Source: a bacterium (GTDB lineage Bacteria; Zhuqueibacterota; Zhuqueibacteria; Residuimicrobiales; Krinioviventaceae). From it: 64,000 nucleotides of DNA. Location: the NCBI GenBank assembly GCA_029561455.1, contig JAKQIY010000065.1:87501-151500 (forward strand). The letters are read 5' to 3'. Position 1 is the stretch's first letter, and the number at the start of each line of letters is the position of its first letter. The translations under genes were made by a program, and so were the position numbers. A model generated the notes under the pieces. The model saw nothing but the letters and a program-made list of their open reading frames with translations. It was not told the DNA's origin and made no database searches. Below, one piece after another: positions 25,149 to 46,012 of the stretch.

Positions 25149-25222
25149 TATATTTTCCTTAATAATACTGATTTTACCAATCACATGGCCATTTTAATTC
25201 TACTACTGATAGCTGACAGCTG
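25110..25222. repeat. Duplicated 5' region, copy B
   Basis: Near-identical partner of 19979-20098, spanning the first codons of member 8 and its leader up to the AGCTGACAGCTG repeats. Confidence 0.8.
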
Positions 25223-25260
25223 ATAACTGAGAACTGACAACTTTCTTCTCACGTTTCACA
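25200..25260. repeat. Spacer repeat block between members 8 and 9
   Basis: ACTGATAGCTGACAGCTGATAACTGAGAACTGACAAC followed by TCTCACGTTTCACA. It abuts the vestigial permease end at 25261. Confidence 0.65.
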
Positions 25261-25281
25261 TCATTCATACCTCAACGCCTC
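25261..25281 (-). pseudogene. Vestigial permease 3' end (EALRYE-stop)
   Basis: The minus strand encodes E-A-L-R-Y-E-stop, the exact array C-terminus, but the intact gene (member 9) has its own EALRYE-stop 51 bp further right. The 21 bp are identical to the end of member 6. A CCGCCTGCGGCGG palindrome (25291-25303 region) separates relic and gene. This is a footprint of a lost or recombined permease. Confidence 0.75.
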
Positions 25282-25311
25282 CATCCGCCTGCGGCGGATT
25301 TCAGCCCCCAG

Positions 25312-27669: not shown

Positions 27670-27719
27670 AATATTTGCCCTTGATTTATCTGCTGAATAT
27701 TAACTATATACCTTACAAT

Positions 27720-27785
27720 TCTTCTTTCACTGATAGCTGATAGCTGACAACTTTTCGTCTCACGTTTCACATTTCACGTTTGACG
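27720..27785. repeat. Spacer repeat block between members 9 and 10
   Basis: CACTGATAGCTGATAGCTGACAAC and CGTCTCACGTTTCACATTTCACGTTTGACG run into the stop codon of member 10. The left part (TACAATTCTTCTTTCACTGA) resembles the spacer before member 7. Confidence 0.65.
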
Positions 27786-30146
27786 TCATTCATACCTTAA
27801 ACTCTCAACCGGGTTCGCCATTGCTGCCCTCAACACCTGCAAGCCGATCATAGCCAGGGCAATGAATACGGTAATTATTCCGGCAAGAATAAATAACCAC
27901 AAATTCAGAGTGATCCGGTAAGCAAAATTTTGTAACCAGTGATGCATCGCATACCAGGCTACCGGCCAGGCCAACAGATTGGCCAATACCACCCAGGAAA
28001 TAAAATCCCTGGATAACAAATAAAACAAACCTGGAACCGAAGCGCCCAACACCTTGCGAATGCCAATCTCTTTACTACGCTGTTCTACCATGAACGAGCA
28101 CAGACCTAAAAGTCCGAGACAGGAAATAAAAATTGCCAAACCGGTAAAGCCACGGGCAAAAACCATAGATCGCTGTTCGTTATGGTAATAATTATCAACC
28201 GCATCTTTAAAAAACATATATGAGAACGGGCGATCGGGCACAAATTCCAGCCACTTGCCTTCGATAAAAGCCAGGGTTTGAAGAATATTATCCGGTTTCA
28301 TTTTTACACAAATATAACAAGGCCCGTTATACATTTCAAAAATAAAGGGTGAAATAGCGCTGTGAAATGAAGTATGATGAAAATCTTTCATTACGCCGAT
28401 AATTTGCCCGGTTCTGCCCTTGTAGGTTATTGTTTTTCCCAGGGGTTCCTGCAGGCCCATTTCTTTTATAGCGGTTTCATTTAACACATAATTATCCAGA
28501 TCAGTCGACATTTCAGAATTGAAAAAACGCCCCGCCGTCATACTTATACCAAAAGTTTGCAGGTAGTCGAAATCCACTATTTTATGATAAATTACAAACT
28601 CCTTATCAATATTCTTTCCCGGCCACATAATATCACTGCTTTCCTCTTCACCAGGATAAAATGGCGGAAAGGCTTTGGAAATACTCTCTATATTCGGATT
28701 CTGTAACAATGCTTCACGGGCGCTGTTATAATCGGTCATATACTTGCCATAACCATAAAAATACACAATATTGTCTTTATCGTACCCTTTGTCGGTATGT
28801 TGCATATAATAAAGCTGCTGATAAAAAACCAGGGAGCCGATAATAAAAACGCTGGCGGTGAAAAACTGAATAACAACCAATATATTCCTGATCCGAGCAT
28901 GCGATGGCACATTGTGAACCAATCCGGCTTTTAATGTGTTTATTGGAGTAAATGATGACAGTACAAAAGCTGGATAACTGCCGGCAAAAATACCGACAAC
29001 GAAAGTTAATGCCGTTAACCAAAACAGCATTTTAAAATTGCTAAAAGAAAGGAATTCCAGGTTTTTACCGATAAATGTAGTAAATACCGGCAATATGAGT
29101 TTAATAATCAGTATTGCCAATATCATAGAGATTAAAGCATACATTACCGACTCGCCCAATAACTGGCCAATCAATTCCCAACGTCTGGCGCCGATAGCTT
29201 TACGCACCCCAATTTCTTTAACACGTATGCTCGACCGTGAAGTGGACAAGTTCATAAAATTGATACATGCCACCAGTAAAACACACAGCGCCACCAACGA
29301 TAAAATATAAACATAAGTAATGTTGCCCTGTTGATAATTACATTGATCCGGAAAAGTTGTGCGTAAATGAATATCGATCAGGGGTTGTAAGCTGAGTTGC
29401 GCTTTCATTTGCGGATTATGTTCGGGGATGATCGAGGCTATCTTTTTCTCCACTTCAGCTCCGGGAAAACCGGCGCGAACCTGGATATAGGTTCTGAAAA
29501 TTCCCACATCCCAGCTTTCCAGATCCTGGTAAAACCACCGGCGCATATTTTCGATCGGGAATAGGTAATCGAACTGAATATGAGAATTCTCCGGTATGTG
29601 AATAACACCGGTAACATATAAATCCGAGTTGTCCTTTTTTATCACTTTACCCAGGGCGGTATTATCGCCAAAGTATTTTTGCGCCATTTTATCGGTAATT
29701 ACAACGGACTGCTGATCCTGCAAAGCAGTCGCCGGGTTGCCCACAATAAAAGGAAAAGAAAATATTTGAAAAAAAGCGGGGTCGGCAGCCGCCCACCGGT
29801 CATTGGTAAAAGATTTATCTTCATATCGTATCAGCCATCCCGAAAACCCGCCCACGTAACGGGTCATAGCTGTAATATCATTATAATTTGCCGCCAACAC
29901 CGGGCCAAGCGTATTAGGCGTAGTAGACGATTTTGTAACACTGTTTGCAGATTCCGTATCGACCAGAATGCGATAGATATTTTGCCGGTTAACATGGAAC
30001 CGGTCATAATTCCATTCATCGGCAATCCATAGAGAAATCAAAATGCTGCAGACCATACCGATAACCAGACCGATGATATTAATAAAGGTATACACTTTAT
30101 TCTTTTTAAAATTTCGCCACGCAAATTTAATGTAACTGAAAAACAT
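27786..30146 (-). CDS. Two-domain MacB/FtsX-type ABC permease, array member 10
   Basis: A 786-aa permease (MFFSYIKFAWRNF) with AGGAAAAAGGAG before the ATG. Coupling motifs KEIGVRKAIGA (near 309) and KEIGIRKVLGA (near 690). PCD motif DPAFFQIFSFPFIVGNP and YFGDNTALG. C-terminus NPVESLRYE. Only 45 bp separate it from member 11 and almost no repeat DNA, so members 10 and 11 and the ATPase are likely one tight transcription unit. Confidence 0.91.
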   Translation of the reverse strand: MFFSYIKFAWRNFKKNKVYTFINIIGLVIGMVCSILISLWIADEWNYDRFHVNRQNIYRILVDTESANSVTKSSTTPNTLGPVLAANYNDITAMTRYVGGFSGWLIRYEDKSFTNDRWAAADPAFFQIFSFPFIVGNPATALQDQQSVVITDKMAQKYFGDNTALGKVIKKDNSDLYVTGVIHIPENSHIQFDYLFPIENMRRWFYQDLESWDVGIFRTYIQVRAGFPGAEVEKKIASIIPEHNPQMKAQLSLQPLIDIHLRTTFPDQCNYQQGNITYVYILSLVALCVLLVACINFMNLSTSRSSIRVKEIGVRKAIGARRWELIGQLLGESVMYALISMILAILIIKLILPVFTTFIGKNLEFLSFSNFKMLFWLTALTFVVGIFAGSYPAFVLSSFTPINTLKAGLVHNVPSHARIRNILVVIQFFTASVFIIGSLVFYQQLYYMQHTDKGYDKDNIVYFYGYGKYMTDYNSAREALLQNPNIESISKAFPPFYPGEEESSDIMWPGKNIDKEFVIYHKIVDFDYLQTFGISMTAGRFFNSEMSTDLDNYVLNETAIKEMGLQEPLGKTITYKGRTGQIIGVMKDFHHTSFHSAISPFIFEMYNGPCYICVKMKPDNILQTLAFIEGKWLEFVPDRPFSYMFFKDAVDNYYHNEQRSMVFARGFTGLAIFISCLGLLGLCSFMVEQRSKEIGIRKVLGASVPGLFYLLSRDFISWVVLANLLAWPVAWYAMHHWLQNFAYRITLNLWLFILAGIITVFIALAMIGLQVLRAAMANPVESLRYE

Positions 30147-30191
30147 TTATTCTCCTTTTTCCTGCAAGCCGATAGCTGACGGCGGACAGAT

Positions 30192-32594
30192 TTATTCACA
30201 CCTCAACGTTTCAACCGGGTTTTCCGCCGCCGCTTTTAATATTCGACTACTCACTGTAACCAGGGCAATGACCGTTACAATCACTCCGGCCAGAATATAA
30301 ACCGGCGCGCCGATAGTCGCCCGGTTGGGGTAATCTTGCAGCCACTGCTGCACAAAATACCAGGCTAACGGCCAGGCCAGGACATTGGCAACCAGAACCC
30401 ATTTAATAATATCCGCAGTTAATAACCCGACTATTCGCGCGGTTGTACAACCTAAAATTTTGCGCATCCCTATTTCCTTACTGCGCATTCCGGTTATAAT
30501 TGCTATGAGGCCGTATAAACCAAGACAGGCAACCCACAGCGCGAAAATTGCAAAAGCTGTTACCATACGGGCCATTTGTTCCTCGGCGGCATACAAGCTG
30601 CGCAGCGACTCATCTAGAAAATAATAACTGAAAGGCTTGCCGGGGAATAATTCCGCCCACTTTTTTTCAGTCAGGGCGAGAATGTCCCTGTTATTCGTTG
30701 AATTCAAATTCATAGTAATCGTACTGTAAAATCCCGGCGTCATCAAGATGAGCAGGGGTTCTACTTTTTGATGCATACTGCGGTAATTAAAGTTCCGCGT
30801 TACGCCAACAATTTCCACCTCGGAATTTACAATACTTTCATGAATTTTTTCCCCGATAGCTTGCTGCGGTGAAGCAAAACCCAAAGCTATTACAGCGGCC
30901 TCGTTGATGAGGCAGCTACGTTCCACATCTGCCATATTCCCGGCATTAAAATTCCGCCCGGCAGCCAGTTCAATTCCATAATTCGGAATAAAATCTTCAT
31001 CATAAAACAACACATACAGCATTTGTTTGTTATCTCTGTTTGCACCTGTCGGCCAAACCGCTGTACTGCCCGCGCCTTGTCCCGGTTCGCCGGAAGAAAC
31101 TGAAACACCGGCAACGCCCGGCAGGGTGCGCAGTTCGTTTTTCACAGTAGTATAATTCTGTTCCAGCGGACGTATTCCCCGCACCGGGATAATCAGTTTT
31201 TGTTTGCCGCTAAATCCGGGATAGCTGTTTTGCATAAAGCCAAGCTGCCGGTAAACTACCAGGGCGCTAATAACAAGTATAACCGTAATAAAAAATTGCC
31301 CGGTGACCAGGACTCTGCGCACCAGCATGCCCTGCGGGCCGGTTTTTATCTGCCCGCGCAGAACCATTACCGGTTTAAAGCCGGCAAGCGCCAGCGCCGG
31401 AATTCCTCCGGCGATTATTCCCAAGAGCAAGGTTATGAATACAACCGGAATGATTATATTTTGTTGCGCCAGGCAGGATATTGAAAAATGACCGTCAATA
31501 ATCCGGTTATAAAATGGCAGCGCCAGCATGACAAGGATAAAAGCCAGCAGCAACGCCGCGCCTGTCACCAGCAGGGAATCTCCCAGGAACTGGCTGACAA
31601 GTTGTAGCGAATTGGCGCCAACAACCTTACGAATGACGGCTTCTTTGGCACGCACCGTATTACGAGCTATGCTTAAATTGATAAAATTGGATGCGGCAAT
31701 AATTAAAATCAGTAAACCCACCCCGGTAAATAACAATAACATCCCGGGGTCTCCGGGATAAGAAGATTCATATAAACGATGTGAATGCAGGTGAATATCG
31801 GCGACTTGCTGCAAGTTAAAAGTAAATTTTATACCGGCAGCGCGGGAATCGTTTTTGGCATGTTCGGCTGCCAACAGGTTGATTTGTTGTTCAAGAGCGG
31901 TTATATCGCTGCCCGGTTGTACTTTAATATAAGTATAGGCCCCCGGCCAGGTCCAGTCATCCATCCACGCCATATTGGCAAACCGTTCAATGGAGGTAAA
32001 CATATTGTATTGTAAATGTGTATTATGAGGGCAATCCTGTACAACGCCGGTAACTGTATAGTCCCGGTCATCCATGTTCAAAACAAGTCCCAGAGGATTG
32101 ACGCTGCCGAAATATTTTTTCGCCAGGGTTTGGGAAATAACAACAGAATGCGGGTTATTCAATGCCGTTTCCGGGTTGCCGGCAAGAAACGGGATCGTTA
32201 AAATAGCAAAAATTTCCGGGTCAGTATAAAGCAATTGTGATTCGTAAAAGTTGTTGTTCCCGTAACGTACCTGGACGCTGTTACCCAAGTTTAAAATGCG
32301 CCCCGCATTCTCTACCTGGGGGAAATTCTGTACAAGCGCCGGAGCCAGTGGCGGTATATTGAACGCATAACTGTTTAACTCAGAGCCGGATTGAAAATCC
32401 ACGGTCACGCGGTAAATTCGTTCGCCATCGCGGTGATAATTATCGTAACTCCTCTCCCGCTGTACATATAACAGGATAAGGATAAAAACAGCAAATCCTG
32501 TCGCCAGTCCGGCTATATTAATAAACGAATACAATTTATATTTACGCACATTCCGCAGAGAAATTTTTGCATAACTTGTCAATAAATCAACCAT
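30192..32594 (-). CDS. Two-domain MacB/FtsX-type ABC permease, array member 11, coupled to ATPase
   Basis: An 800-aa protein started at the ATG at 32594 ([15 protein letters not shown]). Its start overlaps the ATPase stop in ATGGTTGA, and AGAGGAA lies upstream, so translation is probably coupled. The in-frame ATG at 32621 would sit deep inside the ATPase gene. Coupling motifs are unusual: KEAVIRKVVGA near 315 (the EIG triad is lost) and KEIGMRKILGC near 705. C-terminus NPVETLRCE, with Cys for Tyr. The overlap makes it the best candidate for a direct partner of the adjacent ATPase. Confidence 0.92.
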   Translation of the reverse strand: MVDLLTSYAKISLRNVRKYKLYSFINIAGLATGFAVFILILLYVQRERSYDNYHRDGERIYRVTVDFQSGSELNSYAFNIPPLAPALVQNFPQVENAGRILNLGNSVQVRYGNNNFYESQLLYTDPEIFAILTIPFLAGNPETALNNPHSVVISQTLAKKYFGSVNPLGLVLNMDDRDYTVTGVVQDCPHNTHLQYNMFTSIERFANMAWMDDWTWPGAYTYIKVQPGSDITALEQQINLLAAEHAKNDSRAAGIKFTFNLQQVADIHLHSHRLYESSYPGDPGMLLLFTGVGLLILIIAASNFINLSIARNTVRAKEAVIRKVVGANSLQLVSQFLGDSLLVTGAALLLAFILVMLALPFYNRIIDGHFSISCLAQQNIIIPVVFITLLLGIIAGGIPALALAGFKPVMVLRGQIKTGPQGMLVRRVLVTGQFFITVILVISALVVYRQLGFMQNSYPGFSGKQKLIIPVRGIRPLEQNYTTVKNELRTLPGVAGVSVSSGEPGQGAGSTAVWPTGANRDNKQMLYVLFYDEDFIPNYGIELAAGRNFNAGNMADVERSCLINEAAVIALGFASPQQAIGEKIHESIVNSEVEIVGVTRNFNYRSMHQKVEPLLILMTPGFYSTITMNLNSTNNRDILALTEKKWAELFPGKPFSYYFLDESLRSLYAAEEQMARMVTAFAIFALWVACLGLYGLIAIITGMRSKEIGMRKILGCTTARIVGLLTADIIKWVLVANVLAWPLAWYFVQQWLQDYPNRATIGAPVYILAGVIVTVIALVTVSSRILKAAAENPVETLRCE

Positions 32595-33264
32595 GCTGTT
32601 CCTCTTTTTCGACATATCCATCAGCCAGATGGATTATACGGTTGCCAAAAGCCGCTTTGTTTTCATCATGAGTTACCTGGATGATGGTCGTGCCTTCTTT
32701 GTTCAGTTGTTTCAGCATTTCCATAATCTCCAGTCCCTGTTTGGAATTCAGATTGCCGGTGGGTTCGTCTGCTAAAATAATTTTGGGATTGATGATCAAC
32801 GCTCTGGCCACCGCTACCAACTGTTGCTGTCCGCCGGAAAGCTGGTTGGGGAACAAATCCTTTTTCGCCACAATATTGAATCGATCCAGCATATCGGCGA
32901 TCATGCTTTTCCGTTCGGCGGTTTTGACCTTTTTGTATAACAACGGCGTTTCCAGGTTTTCATAAACCGTCAGTTCGTCGATCAAATGATACGCCTGGAA
33001 AACAAAGCCGATGTACTGCTGGTGAAAAGCGGTGCGCTTTTTCTCATTCAATTTATGCACCGGTTCATCCATAAAATAATACTCGCCGCCGGACATGTCG
33101 TCCAGCATACCGATGATATGCAACAGCGTGGACTTGCCCGCCCCGGATGGCCCCATTATCGAGACAAAATCGCCTTCATGTATTGTTAAATTAATATTAC
33201 GCAACACCCAGGTTTTAATGAATTTATTGGCGTAATATTTTTCAACATCGACCAGTTTTATCAT
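32587..33264 (-). CDS. ABC transporter ATPase, MacB/LolD type (first copy)
   Basis: A 225-aa nucleotide-binding subunit that powers MacB/LolCDE-type mechanotransmission. Walker [10 protein letters not shown] (near 39), Q-loop [17 protein letters not shown], signature LSGGQQQ, Walker [12 protein letters not shown] and switch His in VTHD are all present. The residue after the signature is Leu instead of the usual Arg ([10 protein letters not shown]). The start at 33264 has GGAGAATAAC ahead; the longer in-frame start at 33276 adds four residues. It overlaps member 11 by 8 bp and follows the esterase gene by 87 bp. It likely serves several permeases of the array, since most have no ATPase. Confidence 0.95.
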
Positions 33265-33351
33265 GTTATTCTCCACTCATATAGTTCTATATTGAGGTAA
33301 TCCATATTATCGGTTGTTCAATAATATGGACTACCCTTGCTCTCTGTTTTA

Positions 33352-35553
33352 TTACAAACCTGTATCAAAGCTAACTGTTTTTACCGGGCCGTTATAGACC
33401 TCAGTGTCATTCAGAAAAACCGTCATTGTTCCTTGCAAACCAATCCCCATTAGTCCATCATCATACTCGCTCCCTATCACTACTACCCGCTTTGTTCCGA
33501 ATGAATGTATCCGTATTATATTACCTTCTATCTTGCAGGTAAAGCGGGGCAATGCGCTTATTGTCAGATCACGCTCGATATAAACGCCATTCCTGCCAGC
33601 AGGCAGATCATTATTATCAACAACAAAGCTAAAGCTATCCGGCCGGGTACGGGTAAATTGCAGTAACCATTGCAGGTTTGTGCGCCTGGCCGGTTCCGGG
33701 TACTCGTGTCCGCCGCCCGGTACTATGACCATATTCGGATTAACACCATATTTTTTCAGCTCTTCTGCCATGCGATAGGCCTCGGTAACCGGTACAGCGT
33801 TATCGCTGTCGCCATGCCAAATCCGAATCGGCACATCATACAAATTGCCTCCCATTCCCCTGCCGGTCGGCGCGTACCAGGTTCCTCCGGAGCAGATTGC
33901 AACCGCCGCCCACATATCCGGATGGCGCAACGCAAAAGCCCAGGCGCCGCCGCCGCCCATAGAATGGCCGGTCAGGTACACCCGTTTATTATCGATCATA
34001 AAAGTTTTGGCCATGTCCTCAATTGCTTCATACACATCATTGCGGGCATATTCCTGGTATCCGCGGTTGCCCCGTCCCCATGGCATTAATATAAATGGTT
34101 CCGCTTCACCGGGGAACTCTTCCCGCTGAATACCGGCAGTCAAAGCAGCATACGAATTGGCCACATTATTCAAAGTATGTGGATTCCCGGCGCCATGCAA
34201 ATCTACCACCATGGGATAATTCTGACCGGGGTTCCAGCCGCGCGGCAGTAACAGATTATAATACTGCAACGTGTTGTCCGAAGGGGAAATAAAAGCCAAC
34301 ACCAACGACCGTCTACGGTCGAGGTAGGTTTGCCACTGCACCGCATCCCCTTTTAAACCGGATCGTATTATGGAAACATAATGGATAACATCCCTGGCCA
34401 ATTGCGGATTATCATCAAATTGCAAGGCTGCCTGCGCCCATTGCGTTTGTACCAACGCCAATGTTGAATTTAAATGCCTTTTAAAAACCGGCTGCTTTTC
34501 CTTTTGCGCCAGGGTCTCCATTTCACTGATAAAATCTTCAATAACATTACCCGGCGCGGTCAGATTGATCTTTTCACTAAATACAATACGTTCTTTTTTA
34601 TAGACTGTAGCTTCCAACAGTAGTTGACCGGTAGGTAACAATCCCGGGTACCCCTGTACGGAAAAACGACGTATACCGTTTCTGCGCTGTCGTGCCGGCA
34701 GCGTTATCACCTGTTCTGTGGATTCCAACAAACCTTTTACAAGGCATGGTTGATCCGAGTTCACGGCGACAATAATTTCCCCGTAACCGGTTACCCGCCA
34801 GATTTCATTACGGACTCCCAGGGCGGATACATATTCCCGGCCGGGGTTGCCGATTGCCAGGTGATGGAACAAACCTGGCCGCAGCGCGCCGCCTGCTCCA
34901 TCGCCCCAATACAGTCGCGTGGAATTACTCTTTTCCACATCATTCAATTGAATGGCAAAACCGATAACCGGGAATATTCCGGCCCGGGTTTGGAATTCCT
35001 GCCAGGGCATTACCAGGTTATAGGTTGTGGTCTTGGCTTTTTCATCACGGACGATATTCGGCGTCAACTGCGGCAAAGCGCTAACGCCGCCGGGACGGCC
35101 ATGATAATGCGCCCAGGCTTTGGGCCCGGAATCGGTCAATGCAAAAGTGATCGAAGCGTCGTCCGGTCCGGTAAATGCCATACCCCGCGGCAGGCTGCCG
35201 ACGCTGTCGCCGCGTGCATCAATGCCGAACTGGATCGCATCGCCGTTCCAGATATCCTCACCGCTTTTATGATTTTCATGAACATCATCATTTACAATAA
35301 TTTTAACCAGGATGTTCTTTTCGGTTACGGCAAACCAGCCCTGGGCGCTTGTGCCGGCGTTTTCATCCCTAATCTCAAAAACCGGGGCGCCGCTGCTCCA
35401 GGTTTTAATATTTTCCATCACCCAGGGAATGGCGGGCAGTTTCATCAAGGTTGAATCAATGGGAATTTCCTGAATTGTTACCTTGCTCTCTATCGCATGC
35501 GCCAGGGCAGCGCAAACAATCAACAGCAGCATAAGAATACTTTTTATCTTCAT
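33352..35553 (-). CDS. Secreted esterase with CBM9-like N-terminal domain
   Basis: A 733-aa exported protein. A signal peptide covers residues 1-20 (AALAHA cleavage region). Residues about 35-225 resemble family 9 carbohydrate-binding/DOMON-like modules (GWFAVTEKNILVKI, GEDIWNGDAIQFGID). Residues about 430-650 are an alpha/beta hydrolase of the PHB depolymerase/feruloyl-esterase type: VVDLHGAG oxyanion strand, GHSMGG with Ser531, HGDSD with Asp584 and GGGHEYPE with His616 form the likely triad. A short beta-rich tail follows. It lies between permease member 12 and the first ATPase, same strand, 87-99 bp spacers. Probable substrates are plant or microbial polysaccharide esters; specificity is inference. 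Confidence 0.88.
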   Translation of the reverse strand: MKIKSILMLLLIVCAALAHAIESKVTIQEIPIDSTLMKLPAIPWVMENIKTWSSGAPVFEIRDENAGTSAQGWFAVTEKNILVKIIVNDDVHENHKSGEDIWNGDAIQFGIDARGDSVGSLPRGMAFTGPDDASITFALTDSGPKAWAHYHGRPGGVSALPQLTPNIVRDEKAKTTTYNLVMPWQEFQTRAGIFPVIGFAIQLNDVEKSNSTRLYWGDGAGGALRPGLFHHLAIGNPGREYVSALGVRNEIWRVTGYGEIIVAVNSDQPCLVKGLLESTEQVITLPARQRRNGIRRFSVQGYPGLLPTGQLLLEATVYKKERIVFSEKINLTAPGNVIEDFISEMETLAQKEKQPVFKRHLNSTLALVQTQWAQAALQFDDNPQLARDVIHYVSIIRSGLKGDAVQWQTYLDRRRSLVLAFISPSDNTLQYYNLLLPRGWNPGQNYPMVVDLHGAGNPHTLNNVANSYAALTAGIQREEFPGEAEPFILMPWGRGNRGYQEYARNDVYEAIEDMAKTFMIDNKRVYLTGHSMGGGGAWAFALRHPDMWAAVAICSGGTWYAPTGRGMGGNLYDVPIRIWHGDSDNAVPVTEAYRMAEELKKYGVNPNMVIVPGGGHEYPEPARRTNLQWLLQFTRTRPDSFSFVVDNNDLPAGRNGVYIERDLTISALPRFTCKIEGNIIRIHSFGTKRVVVIGSEYDDGLMGIGLQGTMTVFLNDTEVYNGPVKTVSFDTGL

Positions 35554-35652
35554 AAGTCAAACCTGTATTAAAGGATACGTTAGTTTATTATTTTAAATTC
35601 ACCATGGTAATTGATAATTCAATCCAAATAATAATTAGCCATACTCACATAA

Positions 35653-38055
35653 TTATTCATACCGCAGCGTCTCCACAGGATTGCGCGCCGCTACCCGCAG
35701 CGCCTGCCAGCCGGTAACCAGCAACGTAAGCAGCAGCGCCAGCAAACCGGTAACCAGGAACATCCACCACCCGGTATCTACCCGGTAGGCAAAGTTATTC
35801 AGCCATTTGTTGATAAAATAAACAGCCAGGGGAAAAGCAATACAATTAGCAAAAATTACCAACAGGAAAAACTCTTTAAAAATAAGCAACACCAGGCTGC
35901 TAACCGGTGCGCCGATCACTTTGCGGATACCAATTTCCTTGGTTCGCTGTTCGGCCATAAATAACGCCAGGCCGAACAATCCCATAACCGCGACGATTAC
36001 GGCAATGCAGGTCGAAACCAGCATTAAACTGGCCATGCTGTGTTGGGTTTGGTATAACTCTGCCAAACTATCTTCAACAAAACGGCAATCAAGATTAACA
36101 TCGGGGAAAAACTGCACCCAAACTCTTTTAATATGAGCTATGGCGTCCTGTTCTTTTCCCGCTACCGGACGTACAACCAACCGCATTAACAGTTCTTTAC
36201 TGGGGATAAAAACAGTCGGACCGATTTTATCCGTCAACGATCCTTTATGGAAATCATGAATTACTCCAATCACCAGGCGATTTTGATCTCCAAAATAGAT
36301 TGTACTACCAAGAGGGTTGGTGAATTTTAAAGCAGCGACAGCCGCTTCATTAATAATAATCGCCTCTTTCGCATCTGTGCCATACTGCTCGGAAAATCCC
36401 CGGCCATCTTTGATTGTTATTCCCATCGTTTCTATATAATCATAATCCACTGCAATCCATTCCATATCCAACCCGTCGGGGAATTGTTCTACAGTTATTT
36501 TTGATTGCATGCCGATTTGAAACGGCGGCGCGCCGCTTCCCGCTGAAACCTGCTGAATAGCCGGACTTGACAACAACGCCTGCTTTAAAGTCGTATAATT
36601 ATTTTTAACAGATATTCCTTCCATTGGAATGGATAACAAATTATGCTTATTATAACCCAGGTCTTTATGATCGAGATAAAACAATTGCCGGTAAATGACC
36701 AATGTACAAAAAATCAATGCAATAAACACCGTCACCTGGGTAACAATCAATCCCTTGCGCAGCAACGACTTGCCGGTGCGGGCGCTTTTCTGTTTGTATA
36801 AAACCTGCACGGGGTTGAACCTGCCGATATAAAAAGCTACATAACTACCCGAAATTACCCCTACCAGCGTAGTAATACCCAGGAAACCTGTCGTAATTCT
36901 CCAGTTATGCAACAGATCCATATTGATTGACCGTAATGTAAAGCTGTTAAACACCGGCAGGATCAGTTCCACAAGGATCAAAGCGACAGGTAATGCAAGA
37001 CAGGCAATTAATACTGACTCGCCAATGCTTTGTATAATCAAATCCAACCGGTTGGCGCCAATTACCTTGCGCACGCCGATTTCTTTGGCGCGGATGGTGG
37101 AATGCGCCGTGGCGAGAATAATATAATTAATACAGCCGATCAATAATATCAACAGCGCAATGCCGGAAAACAGGGTTATTTTACGTATATCCCCACCGTC
37201 CTGACCGTGCAGATAAGATGAGTGTAAATGGATTGCTTTTAACGGCTGTAATTCATAGAGTACCGGGTTGCCGTCGCCAATATGCCGTTTTGTGAATTCC
37301 GGGAATCTCTGCTCGATTTCCGCAGCAGTTCGCCCCTCCTTCAACAGGACAAAAGTGTTGAACATATTTGCGCCCCATTCCTGCAGAAAATCAAATGCCT
37401 GGCCGAAAAATTCAAATTTTATGGCCCGGCATGATTCCTCACTCACATCAATGGAACAAATCATATTGGTTTGAAACTGTGTATTCCCCGGCATTGACGG
37501 CATAATACCGGTAATCATTAATGGATATAAATCCTTACCGATTTTAATGTTGATTGTTTTGCCGACTGCTTCCTGGCTACCAAAAAGTTTATCAGCAAGT
37601 TTTGAGGTAACTACCACGGAATGCGGCTCTTTTAAGGCAGTGGCAGCATTTCCCTGTAAAAGCGGAAAAGAGAACATGGTAAAGAAATCTGCATCCGCAA
37701 CCAGGACATTTTTCTCATCAAACCAAACGTTATTTTGCAGTGTATAAATTCGCTCTGTTTCTCTTTTTATCACTCGCACTATTTGTGCAAATTCCGGAAA
37801 ATCAAAAGGTAGTTTTTCTGCCAAAATATATGGAGTGTTAGCAATACCGGACAGTCCATCCGGGGCCTCGGTTATAACCCGGTAAATCCTGTCGCCATTT
37901 ATATGGAAATTATCATAACTGAACTCGTGCAATACAAACATAAGAATAAGAAAACAACATGCCAAACCCACCGCCAGCCCGGAAATATTAATAAAGGACA
38001 AAGCCTTTTGTCTTGCCACATTTCTGAACGCCAGTATGAGATAATTTTTAAACAT
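35653..38055 (-). CDS. Two-domain MacB/FtsX-type ABC permease, array member 12
   Basis: An 800-aa permease (MFKNYLILAFRNV). Coupling motifs KEIGVRKVIGA (near 323) and KEIGIRKVIGA (near 704) both fit the consensus. PCD motif DADFFTMFSFPLLQGNA and FGSQEAVGK. C-terminus NPVETLRYE. Upstream by 42 bp is the small exported protein gene, downstream by 99 bp the esterase. No repeat DNA flanks it, unlike members 1-9, so this part of the array looks more operon-like. Confidence 0.91.
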   Translation of the reverse strand: MFKNYLILAFRNVARQKALSFINISGLAVGLACCFLILMFVLHEFSYDNFHINGDRIYRVITEAPDGLSGIANTPYILAEKLPFDFPEFAQIVRVIKRETERIYTLQNNVWFDEKNVLVADADFFTMFSFPLLQGNAATALKEPHSVVVTSKLADKLFGSQEAVGKTINIKIGKDLYPLMITGIMPSMPGNTQFQTNMICSIDVSEESCRAIKFEFFGQAFDFLQEWGANMFNTFVLLKEGRTAAEIEQRFPEFTKRHIGDGNPVLYELQPLKAIHLHSSYLHGQDGGDIRKITLFSGIALLILLIGCINYIILATAHSTIRAKEIGVRKVIGANRLDLIIQSIGESVLIACLALPVALILVELILPVFNSFTLRSINMDLLHNWRITTGFLGITTLVGVISGSYVAFYIGRFNPVQVLYKQKSARTGKSLLRKGLIVTQVTVFIALIFCTLVIYRQLFYLDHKDLGYNKHNLLSIPMEGISVKNNYTTLKQALLSSPAIQQVSAGSGAPPFQIGMQSKITVEQFPDGLDMEWIAVDYDYIETMGITIKDGRGFSEQYGTDAKEAIIINEAAVAALKFTNPLGSTIYFGDQNRLVIGVIHDFHKGSLTDKIGPTVFIPSKELLMRLVVRPVAGKEQDAIAHIKRVWVQFFPDVNLDCRFVEDSLAELYQTQHSMASLMLVSTCIAVIVAVMGLFGLALFMAEQRTKEIGIRKVIGAPVSSLVLLIFKEFFLLVIFANCIAFPLAVYFINKWLNNFAYRVDTGWWMFLVTGLLALLLTLLVTGWQALRVAARNPVETLRYE

Positions 38056-38097
38056 TGTATTGCCTCACGGTTATTGCCGGAATCCTGTAACAGTTTT

Positions 38098-38592
38098 TTA
38101 CTTTGCTTCCTGCTTTTTAAAATACAGATCGCTGAAAAATGGCGTCGCTTGTTTGTAATTGAACATTTCGGTTATCGAGTGTGTAATAATATTCATTTTT
38201 ACGGAATCTACCCGGATCGTTAATAGATCACCATTCACTGTAAAAGTACAAAACGCTTGATAAATTTCCGCATTTTCCATTTTCAGGAATTTATCCATGA
38301 CAACCCGGTTACCGGCAGCCTGGTATGTTCCTTCGGTAGTGGTTTGTTTTTGCTTATTTTTAATCTCTGTCATGGTAAAATTATGATCGTCCGGTATGAC
38401 AAGCTCCAGCATCCAGTTGGCCTGCTCAGCAGTAACTACAGTGGTATCGTTAACCCGGAAAGAATCAAGAATATATTTGCCGCAGGGGAAATTAGTTTGA
38501 GCTTTACTGGTAATGGAAAAGAAAATTATCGTTAATACACTCAAAACAATGATGAATTTAATCATCACGCTAATATCTTTGGTTTTTAACAT
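38098..38592 (-). CDS. Small exported lipocalin-like protein
   Basis: A 164-aa protein with an N-terminal hydrophobic segment (residues about 11-30, FIIVLSVLTIIFFS) and an Ala-rich cleavage-like SKAQ, then a beta-rich region with GKYILDSF, WMLELVIPDD, TTEGTYQAAGNRV and LLTIRVDSVK, a pattern resembling lipocalin-like domains. I cannot name the family. ATG follows TTGGAGGAAAT. It lies between permeases 13 and 12 in the same orientation and may be a periplasmic accessory of their transporter or a neighbour's cargo; both are guesses. Confidence 0.75.
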   Translation of the reverse strand: MLKTKDISVMIKFIIVLSVLTIIFFSITSKAQTNFPCGKYILDSFRVNDTTVVTAEQANWMLELVIPDDHNFTMTEIKNKQKQTTTEGTYQAAGNRVVMDKFLKMENAEIYQAFCTFTVNGDLLTIRVDSVKMNIITHSITEMFNYKQATPFFSDLYFKKQEAK

Positions 38593-38665
38593 ATTTCCTC
38601 CAAAACAAAGAGTTAATAAAAACTCTGGTATCTACTCATGTATAAAAAACAATTACCAGGTATTA

Positions 38666-41107
38666 CTATTCATAATGCAGCGAATCCACGGGATTCGTCC
38701 TCACAGCTCTCATAGTCTGGTAGCCAATGGTTAACATGGCAATAATCAACACCAATCCTGTTGCTAAAATAAATATCCACCAACTCGTTTCTGTCCGGTA
38801 GGCAAAATTTTGCAACCATTTATTCATAACATACCAGGCGCAGGGCCAGGCAATAACATTTGCCAGTAAAATCCATTTGGCAAAATCCTGAGCGAGCATA
38901 CCAAGCAGTGATAACGGTGATGCGCCTAATATTTTGCGGATGCCTATTTCTTTAAAACGCTTTTCAATGACAAAGGCGGCCAGTCCGAACAATCCCAGGC
39001 AAGCTATAAATATGGCCAATATCGAAAAAACAGTGGTAACAATTCCGGTTTTTTGCTCGGCAATATACATATTCGCCAGGTTCTGTTCTAAAAACGTGTA
39101 ATAACAACCCTCAGTCTGTATAAACCGATTCCAGGTTTCTTCAATATATTTAATGGTAGCCGGTAAATTTTGCGATGCAACACGCACAGTTAAAATACTT
39201 GCCGGCTGGCGCGGATGGCAAAGATGAAAAGCCAGCGGCCGAACCTCCCTGTGCAATGATTCATAATTGAAATCCTTGACAACGCCGATTATAGTAAAAG
39301 TTTGGGACCCTCTTTCACCAATTTTTGTCAGCTCTTTGCCGACCGGGTCTGTTGCGTGGCAATCCTTAACCCCTGCTTCATTGATCACCACCGCGTTTGT
39401 ATCCGTCGAAAAATCCCGGGAGAAAAAACGTCCGTCTCTTAATTCTATTTGAAATGTCTTGAGAAAATCATAGTCAACATCCAGGTACTGAAAAGAAACC
39501 GGATCGGTGCCTGATTTTTTATCATACAGGTAACCATTACCCGGTATACCCGATTCAAACATCCGCGAACCATTGGTCAGGGAGATTATACCGGGATTGC
39601 CTTCCAGTTGTTGTTTAAACTCCTCCATCCTGGGTCCTAATACGCCGGCATTGTTTATGGAGAGCAGAAAATCCTTTTTAAAACCCAGATCTTTATTCTG
39701 AATATAATTGACCTGCTTTTTAATGACAATTGTGCCAATGATCAGGGCAATGGATATAGTAAACTGGATGATAACCAGGGCGCTGCGCAACGCACTTTTG
39801 CCGCTGCCCCGGCCTGTGCTAGCTTTGAGTATTTGACCAGGTTGCACTGCGGCAAGGTAAAATGCCGGATAACCGCCGGCGAGTAGTCCCACAACCAGGG
39901 TAAATAGGATCAATACCGGTATGGTTGCAAGATTGTTGAAAAACTGCAAATCCAATTTCTTACCAATCAATGTATTGAACCAGGGCAGTACCAGTTCCAC
40001 CAGTACCAGGGCAATGAAAACAGCAATAGCGCACATTAACACCGATTCAATAATAAACTGCCCAACCAGCTTGAATTGACTGGATCCAACAGTCTTGCGA
40101 ATGCCCACTTCTTTAGCCCGGTTTTCTGAACGTGCTGTGGCAAGATTAATAAAGTTTATAACCGCAATCAGTAAAATAAAAAATGCCACTGCCGAAAAAA
40201 ACCATACGTATACTATATCACTGGTCTTTATATCACCCCATTCGGTATTCAGATCAATCTGGTAATCCCGCTGCGATCGTAAATGTATGGAAGTTAATGG
40301 TTGCAGGTAAAATCCATAACTATTCCCGGCCGCATAAAACTGCTCCAACCGGATGCCCAACAGTGCTTCTGCCTGGGGACCGACATTATCCAGCACTGTC
40401 TTTTGCATTTTTTCTTCCAGTTCTCGTGGCTCCGTTCCTTCCCGCAACAGGATATATGTTGTATACCACAGATCCAGCCAGTAGTGGCTTTGAGTTATCG
40501 GGTATGTAGAGGAAGACAGCAAACCATCACAACTAAAATGCGATTTGTCCGGATAATTCCGCATGACCCCGGTAACCTGAAACGCATCCCGGCCTTCAAT
40601 CTGAATCATCTTGCCGAGCGGATTTTCATCGCCAAAATATTTTTTAGCCAGGGTTTCCGTCATCACCAGTGAATTCGGTTTTAGCAGCGCAGTATTGGCA
40701 TCCCCGTAAAGCAAGGGCAGACTGAAAATCTGAAAATAGGATGAATCAGCAGTATAAATCCCGCTTTCCCGGAATACCTGGTCCCCTTTTCTAAATTTAT
40801 AATGCTCAAAATAACCGATACGGGTATAATTTTCTACTTCAGGGAAATCGCGCAGTAAAGTTTCACCTGTTGGCGCCGCAGTTTTGGAATTGCTGGTTTC
40901 GATACCGTTAACAACCGAATGCACATACACACGATAGATCCGGTCCGCATTCTTGTTGAACGAGTCATAACCCAGTTCATCGAGTATGAACAAAGACAAT
41001 ACAATAAAGCAGGCAATTCCCACCGCAAGGCCGGTGATATTAATTAAGGTAAATCCTTTATACTTTTTCAGATTCCTCAGGGCAATTTTAAGATAATTAC
41101 TAAACAT
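38666..41107 (-). CDS. Two-domain MacB/FtsX-type ABC permease, array member 13 (promoter-proximal)
   Basis: An 813-aa permease (MFSNYLKIALRNL) with AGGAAAACAGC before ATG. Coupling motifs KEVGIRKTVGS (near 330) and KEIGIRKILGA (near 717). PCD motif DSSYFQIFSLPLLYGDA and YFGDENPLG. C-terminus NPVDSLHYE, with His for Arg. It follows the second ATPase by 69 bp and so is the permease most directly tied to the adaptor and ATPase: HlyD-ATPase-permease is the minimal complete set at the head of the array. Confidence 0.92.
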   Translation of the reverse strand: MFSNYLKIALRNLKKYKGFTLINITGLAVGIACFIVLSLFILDELGYDSFNKNADRIYRVYVHSVVNGIETSNSKTAAPTGETLLRDFPEVENYTRIGYFEHYKFRKGDQVFRESGIYTADSSYFQIFSLPLLYGDANTALLKPNSLVMTETLAKKYFGDENPLGKMIQIEGRDAFQVTGVMRNYPDKSHFSCDGLLSSSTYPITQSHYWLDLWYTTYILLREGTEPRELEEKMQKTVLDNVGPQAEALLGIRLEQFYAAGNSYGFYLQPLTSIHLRSQRDYQIDLNTEWGDIKTSDIVYVWFFSAVAFFILLIAVINFINLATARSENRAKEVGIRKTVGSSQFKLVGQFIIESVLMCAIAVFIALVLVELVLPWFNTLIGKKLDLQFFNNLATIPVLILFTLVVGLLAGGYPAFYLAAVQPGQILKASTGRGSGKSALRSALVIIQFTISIALIIGTIVIKKQVNYIQNKDLGFKKDFLLSINNAGVLGPRMEEFKQQLEGNPGIISLTNGSRMFESGIPGNGYLYDKKSGTDPVSFQYLDVDYDFLKTFQIELRDGRFFSRDFSTDTNAVVINEAGVKDCHATDPVGKELTKIGERGSQTFTIIGVVKDFNYESLHREVRPLAFHLCHPRQPASILTVRVASQNLPATIKYIEETWNRFIQTEGCYYTFLEQNLANMYIAEQKTGIVTTVFSILAIFIACLGLFGLAAFVIEKRFKEIGIRKILGASPLSLLGMLAQDFAKWILLANVIAWPCAWYVMNKWLQNFAYRTETSWWIFILATGLVLIIAMLTIGYQTMRAVRTNPVDSLHYE

Positions 41108-41176: not shown

Positions 41177-41866
41177 TTATAAATGGAACTTGTTCTTCAT
41201 ATTTTCTGTTACCACTTTACCGTCAAACAGGTGGACGATACGATTACTGTACTCCGCATAAGAGGGTGAATGGGTTACCATGATGATAGTTGTGCCGGCT
41301 TCATTCAATTCTGTTAATATATTCATCACTTCATCGCCATGTTTGGAATCCAGGTTACCGGTCGGTTCATCCGCCAGAATCACTTTGGGTTTGGCGACAA
41401 CCGCGCGCGCTACGGCCACACGCTGCTGCTGACCGCCGGAAAGCTGCTGCGGGAAATGGCTTTTGCGGTGCATGATCTGCATGTGCTCCATGACTTCATT
41501 GACCATTTTCTTGCGTTCAGTCGCCGAAACTTTTAAATACAACAGCGGCAATTCAATGTTTTCATATACAGTCAACTCGTCGATCAGGTTAAAGGACTGG
41601 AACACAAAGCCGATGTTGCCTTTGCGAATATTGGCCCGCTGCCGTTCATTAAATTTGGCGACTTCTATGCCGTTAAAATAATACTCGCCGCTGGAAGCGG
41701 TGTCGATTAACCCGATCACATTCAGTAAAGTGGATTTGCCGCACCCCGATGGGCCCATAATCGAAACAAACTCGCCTTCGTTTACCTGGAAATTAATATT
41801 ATTCAGCGCGGTTGTTTCAATCTCGTCTGTCTGGTACACTTTGGTCAGATTGGTGGTTTTTATCAT
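41177..41866 (-). CDS. ABC transporter ATPase, MacB/LolD type (second copy, promoter-proximal)
   Basis: A 229-aa nucleotide-binding subunit. Walker A GPSGCGKST, Q-loop [17 protein letters not shown], signature LSGGQQQR, Walker [13 protein letters not shown] and switch His in THSPSYAEY. Unlike the copy at 32587 it keeps the canonical Arg after the signature and Asp in GNLDS. The two copies share the [10 protein letters not shown] segment. It precedes permease 13 and follows the four-helix-bundle gene. It should energise the adaptor-linked transporter. Confidence 0.95.
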   Translation of the reverse strand: MIKTTNLTKVYQTDEIETTALNNINFQVNEGEFVSIMGPSGCGKSTLLNVIGLIDTASSGEYYFNGIEVAKFNERQRANIRKGNIGFVFQSFNLIDELTVYENIELPLLYLKVSATERKKMVNEVMEHMQIMHRKSHFPQQLSGGQQQRVAVARAVVAKPKVILADEPTGNLDSKHGDEVMNILTELNEAGTTIIMVTHSPSYAEYSNRIVHLFDGKVVTENMKNKFHL

Positions 41867-42537: not shown

Positions 42538-43788
42538 TCATTTCAACAACAACACCTCAATATCTCCATAATTATCATACGACGAAGTGATTACTTTTTC
42601 ACCGGGCTTCAGGCCTTCCAGTACTTCATAGTTCTGTGTATTCTGCCGGCCGATGCGGATATTGCGTTTGTGCGCGGCTTTGCCATTATCGTCAACCACG
42701 TAAACCCATTGCCCGCCGGTCGAGTTGAAAAACCCGCCGGTCGCCAGCAACAGCGCTTCGGAAAGGTCGCCCAGCGCCAGCCGGATGTGTACGGTTTGCC
42801 CGCGACGAATGCCGTCCGGTTCTTTTTCGGCAAATTCCATATCCACCTCAAACCGACCCTCGATCACTTCCGGGAAAATCTTTTTAATCAGCAGCTTGCA
42901 GGTCTGCCCGGCAAATGTAAACTCACCCGTTTGGCCCAACTGAATGCGGGCAATATAATGTTCATCCACCTGCACGCGGATTTTAAAGCCGTCCAACACA
43001 TCGATTTGTCCCAGCCGCTCGCCGCGGTTTTTCGATTCACCGATTTCGGCATTGAGGGAGGTCAATTGCCCGGTTATCGGCGCCTTTAAGGTTAAATCCT
43101 GCATGTTCTTACGGACTATTTTTAAATTATCCTGCATCCGCGCCAGTGAAGATTCCAACTGTTCAATTTGCACAATTCGGAATAAAGAGTCCTGCTTGTG
43201 GGTTTGCAGGGTGATCTCACTTTTGCTTTGCAGGTATTCATACTTGTCCCGTACATCTTCATATTCCTTTAAAGAAATGAGCTTGCGTTCATACAATTCC
43301 TGCGCCCGTTCCCAAGCCCGCTTCTGCTGTTTTATTTCATAATCCAAACTGATGAGCTGCGCCTTTAGGTCAAGCCGGTGCTGATCCATAGCCAGCCGGG
43401 TGTTGCGCAGGTTGTTGCTTTGCTCAAAAAGCTCGGCTTCACGATACATAATATTCATCAACAGGTCCGTATTGGCCAGGGTTAATATACTGTCGCCTTT
43501 TTTCACAAAGGTTCCGGCCTCTAAATACTTTTTCTCCACTCTGCCGCCTTCGATGGCATCCAGGTAAACTGTGGTTATTGGTATCACCGTCCCGGTCACC
43601 GGGATAAATTCCTGGAATACATCCCGTGTAACCTCAGAGATTGTAATGCGTTCGGACTCGACATTTAATTTTGACCTGTGATCGCCCAGGATCAGGTTGT
43701 ATAGTACCAGAATGACCAACACACCTGAGACAGAGAACAATACGATTTTGCGCGGCGGCCATTTCTTTTTTTGAATAATTCTATCCAT
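42538..43788 (-). CDS. Periplasmic adaptor (HlyD/MacA family)
   Basis: A 416-aa membrane-fusion protein. One N-terminal span (residues about 17-36, IVLFSVSGVLVILVLYNLI), a lipoyl-type half (GRVEKKYLEAGTFVKKGDSIL), a long coiled-coil hairpin (about 113-235), the second lipoyl half (LTLKAPITGQLTSLNAEIGE) and beta-barrel/membrane-proximal domains. It would bridge the inner-membrane permease to an outer-membrane channel, none of which is encoded here. The start at 43788 has GAGG six bases upstream; the ATG at 43794 touches that site. A sigma54-type promoter lies about 27 nt upstream. It is the first gene of the array and the only adaptor in it. Confidence 0.92.
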   Translation of the reverse strand: MDRIIQKKKWPPRKIVLFSVSGVLVILVLYNLILGDHRSKLNVESERITISEVTRDVFQEFIPVTGTVIPITTVYLDAIEGGRVEKKYLEAGTFVKKGDSILTLANTDLLMNIMYREAELFEQSNNLRNTRLAMDQHRLDLKAQLISLDYEIKQQKRAWERAQELYERKLISLKEYEDVRDKYEYLQSKSEITLQTHKQDSLFRIVQIEQLESSLARMQDNLKIVRKNMQDLTLKAPITGQLTSLNAEIGESKNRGERLGQIDVLDGFKIRVQVDEHYIARIQLGQTGEFTFAGQTCKLLIKKIFPEVIEGRFEVDMEFAEKEPDGIRRGQTVHIRLALGDLSEALLLATGGFFNSTGGQWVYVVDDNGKAAHKRNIRIGRQNTQNYEVLEGLKPGEKVITSSYDNYGDIEVLLLK

Positions 43789-43825
43789 TTTCATCCTCGC
43801 TGGTTTACATTTTGCAGTTTAATTT

Positions 43826-43841
43826 AGCATAAAACATGCCA
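43826..43841 (-). promoter_or_regulatory. Sigma54 (-24/-12) promoter of the array
   Basis: The minus strand reads TGGCAT-GTTTT-ATGCT, matching TGGCAC-N5-TTGCA with the essential GG and GC exactly 11 bases apart. The predicted transcription start is near 43815, before the adaptor ATG. A sigma54-activator gene is divergent from it. Confidence 0.75.
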
Positions 43842-43907
43842 ACATTGTTTTTATTGAACTTATGTGTGTTTTATACCCGCTTGTTTATCAGTCACTATCC
43901 GGTTACA

Positions 43908-43934
43908 GACACCCGGTGTCCGAAATCGGACACC
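43908..43934. promoter_or_regulatory. Palindromic activator site (candidate UAS)
   Basis: GGTGTCCGA-AA-TCGGACACC (43915-43934) is a perfect 9-2-9 palindrome. GACACC-C-GGTGTC (43908-43920) overlaps it, adding a third half-site. It is centred about 85 bp upstream of the -24 element (near -110), a usual distance for NtrC-family enhancer sites. Confidence 0.7.
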
Positions 43935-44635
43935 TGACTTGAAAAAAATTGAGGCTGTATCAAAAATTTAATAGTATAATTCCTGGTTCTGCTTATATAA
44001 AAAACTCCCTGCCTTGTCATTCCGAGGAGCGAAGTGACGAGGAATCTTTTTCTGTTAATACTAAAAAAATAACTTTTCTCGCTCCGCTCAAAATGACAAG
44101 AGTACTAGAGAATTTATAATATTAAAGTCATTGGATTGAATGTTAAATTCAGGTTAAAGGTATTAAAAGTAATGACTTTATAAAATGTCCACATATAATG
44201 TTTTCCTCCGCGTTCTGCGTCCTCTGCGTTTAAAAAGATAGAAACCGCTGAGATCGCCGAGTTCGCAGAGAAATAAATTATATCTTTGTGTTCTGCGGAT
44301 AACCCATTGCCACGACATTCATGTCGGGGGTTATATAAAATCAAGAATTGACTTTAGTCAAAAAAATTCTGTTATTAAGACTAAAGCCTTTTAGTATGAG
44401 TTGTTGAATTCCACTATCTAAAGATAGTGGCTATGAATTAACTGCCGGCAACCTTTTATGCGAGTCTGCGACCCGCAGCATTCCATAAAGGGTATGCACT
44501 CCGGATTGCCTGGCTTTTATGGGCAACGCCTTTATGCGCTACAGTTCGAGTATTCATTCAAAATTTAATTTCTCCTTTGCAAAAATTAGATTATATTATA
44601 ATCAACCACACTTTACTTACAAATGGAACAAAACC
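43935..44635. repeat. Intergenic composite of dispersed repeats before the regulator gene
   Basis: Besides the regulatory sites, this region holds an element bounded by CTTGTCATT (about 44013) and AATGACAAG (44092-44100) containing CCGAGGAGCGAAGTGACGAGGAA, a CCTCCGCGTTCTGCGTCCTCTGCG stretch (about 44206-44230), and three perfect small palindromes: CGACAT-TC-ATGTCG (44313-44326), TTGACT-TT-AGTCAA (44348-44361) and CCACTATCT-AA-AGATAGTGG (44411-44430). No gene is visible; the upstream extension of the regulator frame (from 44519) is not convincing. Confidence 0.6.
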
Positions 44636-46012
44636 ATGCACAATCAACTCGGTAAAATCCTGATCGTCGACGATAACGAAGATATTCTTACCGCCGCCAA
44701 ACTGCTGTTAAAAAAAGAAGCCAAACTGGTGCACACGGAAAAAGAGCCGCACAATATCCCGGCGCTGCTGAAAAATGAGAGTTATGATATAATTCTGCTT
44801 GATATGAACTTTACCCGCGATGTTACCAGCGGTTCGGAAGGGTTCCACTGGTTAAACGAGATCCTGCGCATCGATCCTTCGGTAATTATCATTCTGATGA
44901 CCGCCTATGGCGACGTCGACCTCGCCGTCCGCGCCATGAAAGCCGGGGCTTCCGATTTTATTCTTAAACCCTGGCAAAATGAAAAACTGCTCGCCACCCT
45001 CTCTGTAGCCATGAACCTGCGCCAGTCCCGCCTGGAAATCGACAAACTGCGCACCCGCCAGCAGCAGTTGAGCGCCGACCTGGATCAGAATTACCATGAT
45101 ATGGTGGGCAGCAGCGCGGTTATGCTAAAAGTGTTCACCGCCATTTCCCGCGTAGCCGGCACCGACGCCAATGTGCTCATCATGGGGGAAAACGGCACCG
45201 GCAAGGAACTGGTGGCGCGCGCCCTGCACCGGCAATCCCTGCGCGCCGATGACGTATTTATCAGTGTGGATATGGGCGCTATCTCCGAAACCCTGTTCGA
45301 AAGCGAACTGTTCGGTCACATGCGCGGCGCCTTTACCGACGCTAAGAACGATAAAGCCGGACGCTTTGAAGTGGCTTCCGGCGGCACCCTGTTCCTGGAT
45401 GAGATCGGTAACCTCTCCCTGGCCATGCAGGCCAAACTATTGCGCGTGCTGGAAGACCGCCAGGTGATCCGCCTCGGCTCCAACCAGCAGCGCCCTATTG
45501 ATATCCGCCTGATTTGCGCTACCAACATGCCGCTGTATGACATGATCGCCAAAAAAGAATTCCGGCAAGACTTTTTATACCGCATCAATACTGTTGAAAT
45601 CCATTTGCCTCCATTGCGGGAAAGAAAAGAAGACATTCCCTTGCTGGTGCACCATTTTCTGGCAATTTATGCCAAAAAGTATAAAAAGCCGGCCCTGCAC
45701 ATCAGCGCCGGGGCGCTCGCCAAACTCCAGCAATACCCCTGGCCCGGCAATGTCCGCGAACTCTGCCACGCCCTGGAACGCGCCGTGATCATGACCGACA
45801 AGCAGGTTTTGCAGCCGGAAGACTTTACCTTCCAGGTAGCCCACCAACAACAGGAAACGGCAGGTTTTAATACTTTTAACTTGGACGAAATTGAAAAAAC
45901 CATGATCCGCAAAGTGATGGAACTGTGCGGCGACAACATCAGCCAGGCCGCGCAAAAACTGGGCATCACCCGCTCTTCCCTGTACCGAAGGATGGAAAAA
46001 CATGGCCTTTAA
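44636..46012 (+). CDS. Sigma54-dependent response regulator, NtrC family
   Basis: A 458-aa transcription activator. Receiver domain (residues 7-120) with acidic pair D12-D13 and phospho-acceptor D56 in ILLDMNF; AAA+ domain with Walker A GENGTGKE (184-191), GAFTDA loop (231-236), Walker B GTLFLDEIG and the RLICATN sensor; C-terminal Fis-type helix-turn-helix (NISQAAQKLGITRSSLYRRM). The ATG at 44636 begins right before the receiver; longer in-frame starts add unrelated residues. It overlaps the kinase gene by 11 bp. It likely acts on the palindrome and -24/-12 promoter in front of the divergent adaptor. Asp replaces the second Gly of the usual GAFTGA. Confidence 0.95.
   Translation: MHNQLGKILIVDDNEDILTAAKLLLKKEAKLVHTEKEPHNIPALLKNESYDIILLDMNFTRDVTSGSEGFHWLNEILRIDPSVIIILMTAYGDVDLAVRAMKAGASDFILKPWQNEKLLATLSVAMNLRQSRLEIDKLRTRQQQLSADLDQNYHDMVGSSAVMLKVFTAISRVAGTDANVLIMGENGTGKELVARALHRQSLRADDVFISVDMGAISETLFESELFGHMRGAFTDAKNDKAGRFEVASGGTLFLDEIGNLSLAMQAKLLRVLEDRQVIRLGSNQQRPIDIRLICATNMPLYDMIAKKEFRQDFLYRINTVEIHLPPLRERKEDIPLLVHHFLAIYAKKYKKPALHISAGALAKLQQYPWPGNVRELCHALERAVIMTDKQVLQPEDFTFQVAHQQQETAGFNTFNLDEIEKTMIRKVMELCGDNISQAAQKLGITRSSLYRRMEKHGL

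Follow-up and report, generated by a model that had tools for sequence, protein, structure and literature searches.

The stretch of DNA analysed here, 64 kb in length (hereafter, the window), contains a composite regulatory module in which a sigma54 promoter, together with two enhancer sites upstream of it, very probably turns on an operon of adaptor, ABC ATPase and permease genes via a divergently encoded NtrC-type response regulator. This reading was obtained by sequence comparison and builds on the following features.

43819..43937, minus strand: the whole regulatory module, to which profile R1 aligns with 60.8 bits and E 5.8e-18 when the window is searched
43917..43932, minus strand: E1, the putative core enhancer site TGTCCG-ATTT-CGGACA, within the 9-2-9 palindrome at 43915-43934 and conserved before adaptors and permeases
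43896..43911, minus strand: E2, TGTCTGTAACCGGATA, an imperfect and putative second enhancer site that lies 21 bp from E1 in the direction of the promoter
43845..43862, minus strand: U, TAAGTTCAATAAAAACAA, a block rich in A that adjoins the -24 element on its upstream side (aligned to the profile, positions 70-87)
43826..43841, minus strand: P, the predicted sigma54 -24/-12 promoter, TGGCAT-GTTTT-ATGCT, with 10/12 consensus positions and with place and spacing as in the relatives
42538..43794, minus strand: periplasmic adaptor of the HlyD type, with which the presumably controlled operon begins (PF13437/PF16576; DarC model, 226 bits against a cut-off of 450)
41177..41866, minus strand: ABC ATPase of the LolD/MacB/DarD type (PF00005; DarD model, 288 bits against a cut-off of 375)
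3832..41107, minus strand: 13 permeases of ~800 aa with the domain order MacB_PCD-FtsX-MacB_PCD-FtsX, together with a second ABC ATPase (32587-33276), identified with phmmer and Pfam
44636..46012, plus strand: NtrC-type response regulator with receiver, AAA+ domain (GAFTDA loop) and Fis-type HTH, assigned from Pfam, orthologs and the recognition helix
46002..47354, plus strand: partner histidine kinase, overlapping the regulator gene (PF02518; H-box HEIMN)

A sigma54 promoter was sought as a -24 GG and a -12 GC with 10 bp between them, near the consensus TGGCACG-N4-TTGCW. The element that the original prediction had placed before the adaptor gene, TGGCATGTTTTATGCT at 43841-43826 (minus strand), shows GG-N10-GC with exact spacing, agrees with the consensus at 10/12 positions, is conserved in relatives and precedes the start codon of the adaptor gene (ATG, 43794) by 34 bp. 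The letters of the perfect 9-2-9 palindrome GGTGTCCGAAATCGGACACC (GGTGTCCGA-AA-TCGGACACC, 43915-43934) were also confirmed, and its E1 core is conserved. A second, overlapping palindrome, GACACC-C-GGTGTC, is indeed present at 43908-43920 but appears to be incidental: it is not conserved, and the second site that is conserved is TATCCGGTTACAGACA at 43896-43911 (E2). To these elements, the present analysis adds the conserved A-rich block beside the -24 element. Within the window, neither the palindrome nor the sigma54 element is significant by itself: perfect repeats with 9-bp arms and gaps of 0-10 occur in 10 distinct versions in the 64 kb, and sigma54 matches of this quality number 4, compared with ~5 in Markov-shuffled sequence. 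Because neither element alone goes beyond chance, the case rests on the relatives.

The intergenic region also contains repeat-like DNA at 43990-44110 and 44205-44300 (GGAGCGAAGTGACGAGGAATCT...; GCGTCCTCTGCGTTT...), which seems to enlarge it to ~840 bp; in most relatives it measures some 200-550 bp. Another perfect 9-2-9 palindrome, CCACTATCTAAAGATAGTGG at 44411-44430, was considered and rejected, being part of a dispersed repeat with ~12 genomic copies within 3 mismatches, several of them near contig ends.

Orthologs of the regulator collected by protein search are ~42-81% identical to it, and the nearest named relatives include a Calditrichia MAG. Nearly always when the adaptor gene is divergent from the regulator gene, the intergenic DNA contains TGTNCG-N4-CGNACA followed by a sigma54 element that faces the adaptor. 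Four blocks stand out on the alignment: E1, with the consensus TGTNCG-N4-CGNACA; E2, with the consensus TGTAAT-N5-CGGATA or a 16-bp version of it, in which TGT...CGGATA is conserved and which starts 21 bp from E1 in 32/36 composites; U, immediately before -24, with the A-rich consensus TAAGTTnnnTAAAAACAA; and P, with the consensus TGGCAYR-N4-TTG, whose -12 end varies among the sister promoters (TTGA, TTGT or TTGC, with many TTGA or TTGT instead of TTGC). Adaptor genes found by protein search alone are also preceded by the module. In 7 genomes the adaptor gene lies on another contig than the regulator gene or further away from it, and here the module is found at the adaptor; it was looked for upstream of the regulator gene in the unlinked genomes and is absent there. 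Apparently, then, it is with the target genes that the module is associated, and not with the regulator gene. The predicted reading of the locus as a complete regulatory circuit is thereby strengthened, given that the combination of promoter and enhancer is kept in ~25 adaptor loci, tracks the regulator, follows the unlinked adaptor and recurs before permeases.

We searched 82 genomes of the phylum with a gapped pattern and then with a 125-position profile, R1. The module (E<1e-5) was detected in 24 of the 30 regulator-positive genomes and in 5 of the 52 regulator-negative ones (Fisher p 1.3e-10), and in 11/17 versus 3/50 when the training genomes were left out (p 2.6e-6), counts that come from relatives with shared ancestry and are not independent trials. 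Four of the five regulator-negative genomes with a site are 70-87% complete and the fifth is 94% complete, so that in the four incomplete assemblies a regulator might have been missed. Among the 6 regulator-positive genomes with no match at E 1e-5, two (G010 and G012) have weaker sites. Regulators 47-63% identical to the one in the window were also found in six records labelled Bacteroidales, Tenebribacter, Cyclobacteriaceae and Flavobacteriales (L032-L036 and L040), several with the same operator, which suggests either spread between phyla or mislabelled MAGs.

In this genome, the module is the one independent R1 match below E 0.01, with E 4.9e-15; the profile includes the window's own sequence, and a leave-out PWM is in agreement. 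Trained on 15 relatives, with the window and a same-genus sister excluded, this PWM gives the site +33 bits, against -14 bits for the runner-up in the 64 kb. A search of the genome for the 20-bp palindrome, GGTGTCCGA-N2-TCGGACACC, returned this single copy only, even with 3 mismatches allowed, as the functional consensus seems to be the shorter and looser TGTNCG-N4-CGNACA. Consistent with this, the exact form TGTCC...GGACA yielded nothing useful in the first relatives, and the looser motif was found by reading intergenic DNA by eye. Matches to TGTCCG-N0-8-CGGACA elsewhere in the genome were rejected, being located in coding sequence or lacking a convincing sigma54 site after them. A weak reverse R1 match points toward the regulator gene (43893-43976, plus strand, 16.7 bits), and comparable ones occur in four other genomes (G067, G075, G077 and G052); these could reflect autoregulation or merely the symmetry of E1.

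The divergent gene had been predicted to encode a sigma54 activator, and Pfam bears this out, with the receiver (PF00072), sigma54-activation (PF00158) and Fis-type HTH (PF02954) domains over the cut-off and in the order of NtrC. The gene probably starts at the ATG at 44636 and not where the open reading frame opens, at 44519; the start was moved because homology begins at residue ~40. The Walker A and B motifs and the phospho-acceptor Asp are intact, and the kinase gene adjoins that of the regulator in most relatives. The best-scoring models are PrsR, AtoC, NtrC and ZraR-like, with the curated equivalog cut-offs missed. The recognition region, GNIS.AA.ELGLTR(T/A/S)(S/A)LYRR.EKYGL, hardly varies between the orthologs, and the recognition helix, LTR(T/A/S)(S/A)LYRR, is unlike that of all 21 paralogs compared from the same genome.

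These findings bear on the possibility that E1 is bound by some other protein, either another NtrC-type activator or a repressor, and that the divergent regulator acts elsewhere. The genome encodes ~22 clear sigma54 activators, and five genomes have sites with no regulator ortholog detected; nevertheless, we consider this alternative unlikely, given that the sites track the presence of the regulator (24/30 versus 5/52), that the regulator is divergently adjacent in many genomes, and that its recognition helix is kept among the site-bearing genomes and differs from those of all the paralogs.

Textbook sigma54 activators contact the sigma factor through a GAFTGA loop. Here, the loop reads GAFTDA in 36/38 orthologs (residues 270-275 of the open reading frame 44519-46012), and the listed paralogs have GAFTGA or close forms. 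The GAFTDA loop coincides with the degenerate -12 ends of the sister promoters, and we hypothesize that the two are tied; GAFTDA combined with TTGA or TTGT at -12 makes promoter strength and strict sigma54 dependence less certain.

The distance between the centre of E1 and the -12 element clusters at 94-99 bp and, beyond that, at 84-88 and 106-109 bp, with 64, 73-74, 82, 117, 126 and 144 bp found rarely; the resulting classes of ~85, 96 and 108 bp seem to correspond roughly to whole helical turns. Pattern and profile searches by themselves restrict the spacing, and therefore loci found by protein search were tested separately: 26 such loci were collected by hand, two without a clear short-range pair of E1 and promoter having been excluded. 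The spacing is 95-99 bp in 18 of the 26, and the 8 non-modal loci differ from 96 bp by amounts that keep the helical phase if a turn takes 10.5 bp (p 0.003, a value weakened by shared ancestry). A Rayleigh test across all spacings was dropped as uninformative because one spacing cluster dominates. The pattern appears to fit what a short, phased DNA loop would predict.

The same comparison weighs on the proposal that transcription of the adaptor gene starts at an ordinary promoter of the sigma70 type and that the -24/-12 match is accidental. Matches with this score do occur 4 times in the window, about as often as in shuffled sequence, and a weak sigma70-like pair (9/12) is present at 44001-43973 on the minus strand. 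That pair, however, is upstream of the enhancer, similar matches turn up also in shuffles of this AT-rich region, and the minus strand of 43826-43934 contains no sigma70-like site; with the -24/-12 element recurring at the same place and in phased spacing in the relatives, we regard an accidental match as quite improbable. That the palindrome is instead an RNA hairpin, a terminator or attenuator, or a chance repeat is hardly credible: although each of its strands can form a stable hairpin (-15 kcal/mol, z about -3) and nine-bp-arm repeats are common in the window, it lies upstream of the promoter, no T-tract terminator was found, and the arms of the relatives' sites often pair incompletely (TGTTCG...CGTACA, TGTTCG...CGCACA), with the letters TGT.CG....CG.ACA fixed despite the imperfect pairing, as expected for protein contacts.

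The sigma54 switch would control a large transporter array. From 43.8 to 3.8 kb, the minus strand encodes the adaptor, two ABC ATPases and 13 permeases, with a few unrelated genes in between. A phmmer search with the first permease recovers the other 12 at E about 2e-118 or better, and all of this genome's ~800-aa permeases among the matches listed are located in the array. Other genes in the operon region encode a DNA-alkylation-repair-like protein (11726-12433), an alpha/beta hydrolase (33352-35553) and a 23S-IVP-type protein (41945-42304).

Beyond this locus, the DNA up to 750 bp downstream of the 39 non-training sites leads to a permease gene in 28 cases, to the adaptor gene in 5 and to an ABC ATPase gene in 2; at the remaining 4, no such gene is within reach or the assignment is ambiguous. 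These permeases belong to the same MacB_PCD/FtsX family as those of the window, and the training sites precede the same target classes. Relatives such as G026, G051, G045 and G046 contain 7-11 sites apiece, and the only strong site of this genome heads the 13-permease array. The presence of the same switch before other MacB/FtsX permeases in the relatives implies that the regulator commands a regulon, and in these genomes the circuit appears to be a multi-operon one, probably comprising one adaptor, one or two ATPases and many permeases. The controlled genes presumably function in export.

By analogy with the known members of its family, the regulator is expected to act as follows. A signal at the histidine kinase would lead to phosphorylation of the regulator, whose HTH dimers would bind E1; the weaker E2, which is closer to the promoter by 21 bp, or two helical turns, would be occupied as well, probably cooperatively. 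Through a short loop, the AAA+ ring would contact the sigma54-RNA polymerase waiting at P. The DNA loop of ~96 bp would require both ends to face each other, with which the fixed, helically phased spacing is compatible, and U may aid loop formation by bending or by binding the alpha subunit of the polymerase. Remodelling of the sigma54 polymerase at P would then allow transcription to start near 43815. A signal and an exported substrate are likewise presumed from the families involved.

A broader reading is that a dedicated regulator with a GAFTDA loop hard-wires dispersed permeases to the adaptor and ATPase, with the enhancer distance quantised in helical turns. It covers the phylum and some Bacteroidales, the orphan-type MacB/FtsX permeases and the composite module, and we consider it evenly balanced between true and false. 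If true, the system would be a coordinated exporter regulon with exchangeable permeases rather than one with a distance-tolerant enhancer. Uncultured bacteria have large orphan-type MacB/FtsX permeases in abundance, and the role of these is mostly obscure; one operator that joins dozens of them to a single kinase-regulator pair would provide a functional grouping, and with a regulon predictable from sequence, the wiring of poorly understood export systems becomes open to prediction. In addition, the natural series of enhancer distances (~85, 96 and 108 bp) represents a comparative data set on helical phasing in sigma54 activation.

As a circuit type, the module is of the standard NtrC, AtoC and ZraR-like kind. 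An upstream activating sequence for a bEBP is a dyad operator ~80-150 bp upstream of the promoter, and the dyad described here lies within this range and is conserved together with the promoter across the relatives. In the open-licence literature, as far as searched, we found no description of the operator, the composite geometry, the permease regulon or MacB/NtrC circuits, nor any in work on how ADOP permeases are regulated or on sigma54 in Calditrichaeota, and a sigma54/NtrC-type regulon of orphan-type permeases seems to be undescribed there. Sigma54 has been proposed as a controller of the bacterial exterior, that is, of envelope transport and synthesis (Francke et al. 2011, PMC3162934), a theme that an envelope-transporter regulon fits; a word search of that article gave no mention of permease, MacB or efflux.

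The circuits of NtrC (glnA), ZraR (zraP) and AtoC (atoDAEB) share with the present one an activator of the receiver-AAA+-Fis HTH type with a kinase partner, paired inverted-repeat sites ~100 bp upstream, and a -24/-12 promoter; what sets the present circuit apart is the operator TGTNCG-N4-CGNACA, the arrangement of strong and weak sites 21 bp apart, the phase-locked distance, the conserved A-rich block and the GAFTDA loop. On the transporter side, the darobactin exporter DarBCD and tripartite transporters of the MacAB type likewise combine an adaptor, a separate ABC ATPase and a MacB_PCD-FtsX permease. DarC and DarD are the best NCBIfam models for the adaptor and the ATPase, with scores far below the equivalog cut-offs for DarB, DarC and DarD alike (126.7/700, 226.4/450 and 288.2/375 bits). 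The top NCBIfam model for the permeases is ADOP (TIGR03434), whose members have the same length of ~800 aa and two MacB_PCD-FtsX halves; scores of 297.5 and 273.4 bits, short of the curated cut-off of 622.3, mark the permeases as ADOP relatives and not named members. Unlike DarBCD and MacAB, the system described here has 13 permeases in one array and a dedicated sigma54 circuit, and unlike the ADOP family, its permeases are tied to a defined regulon.
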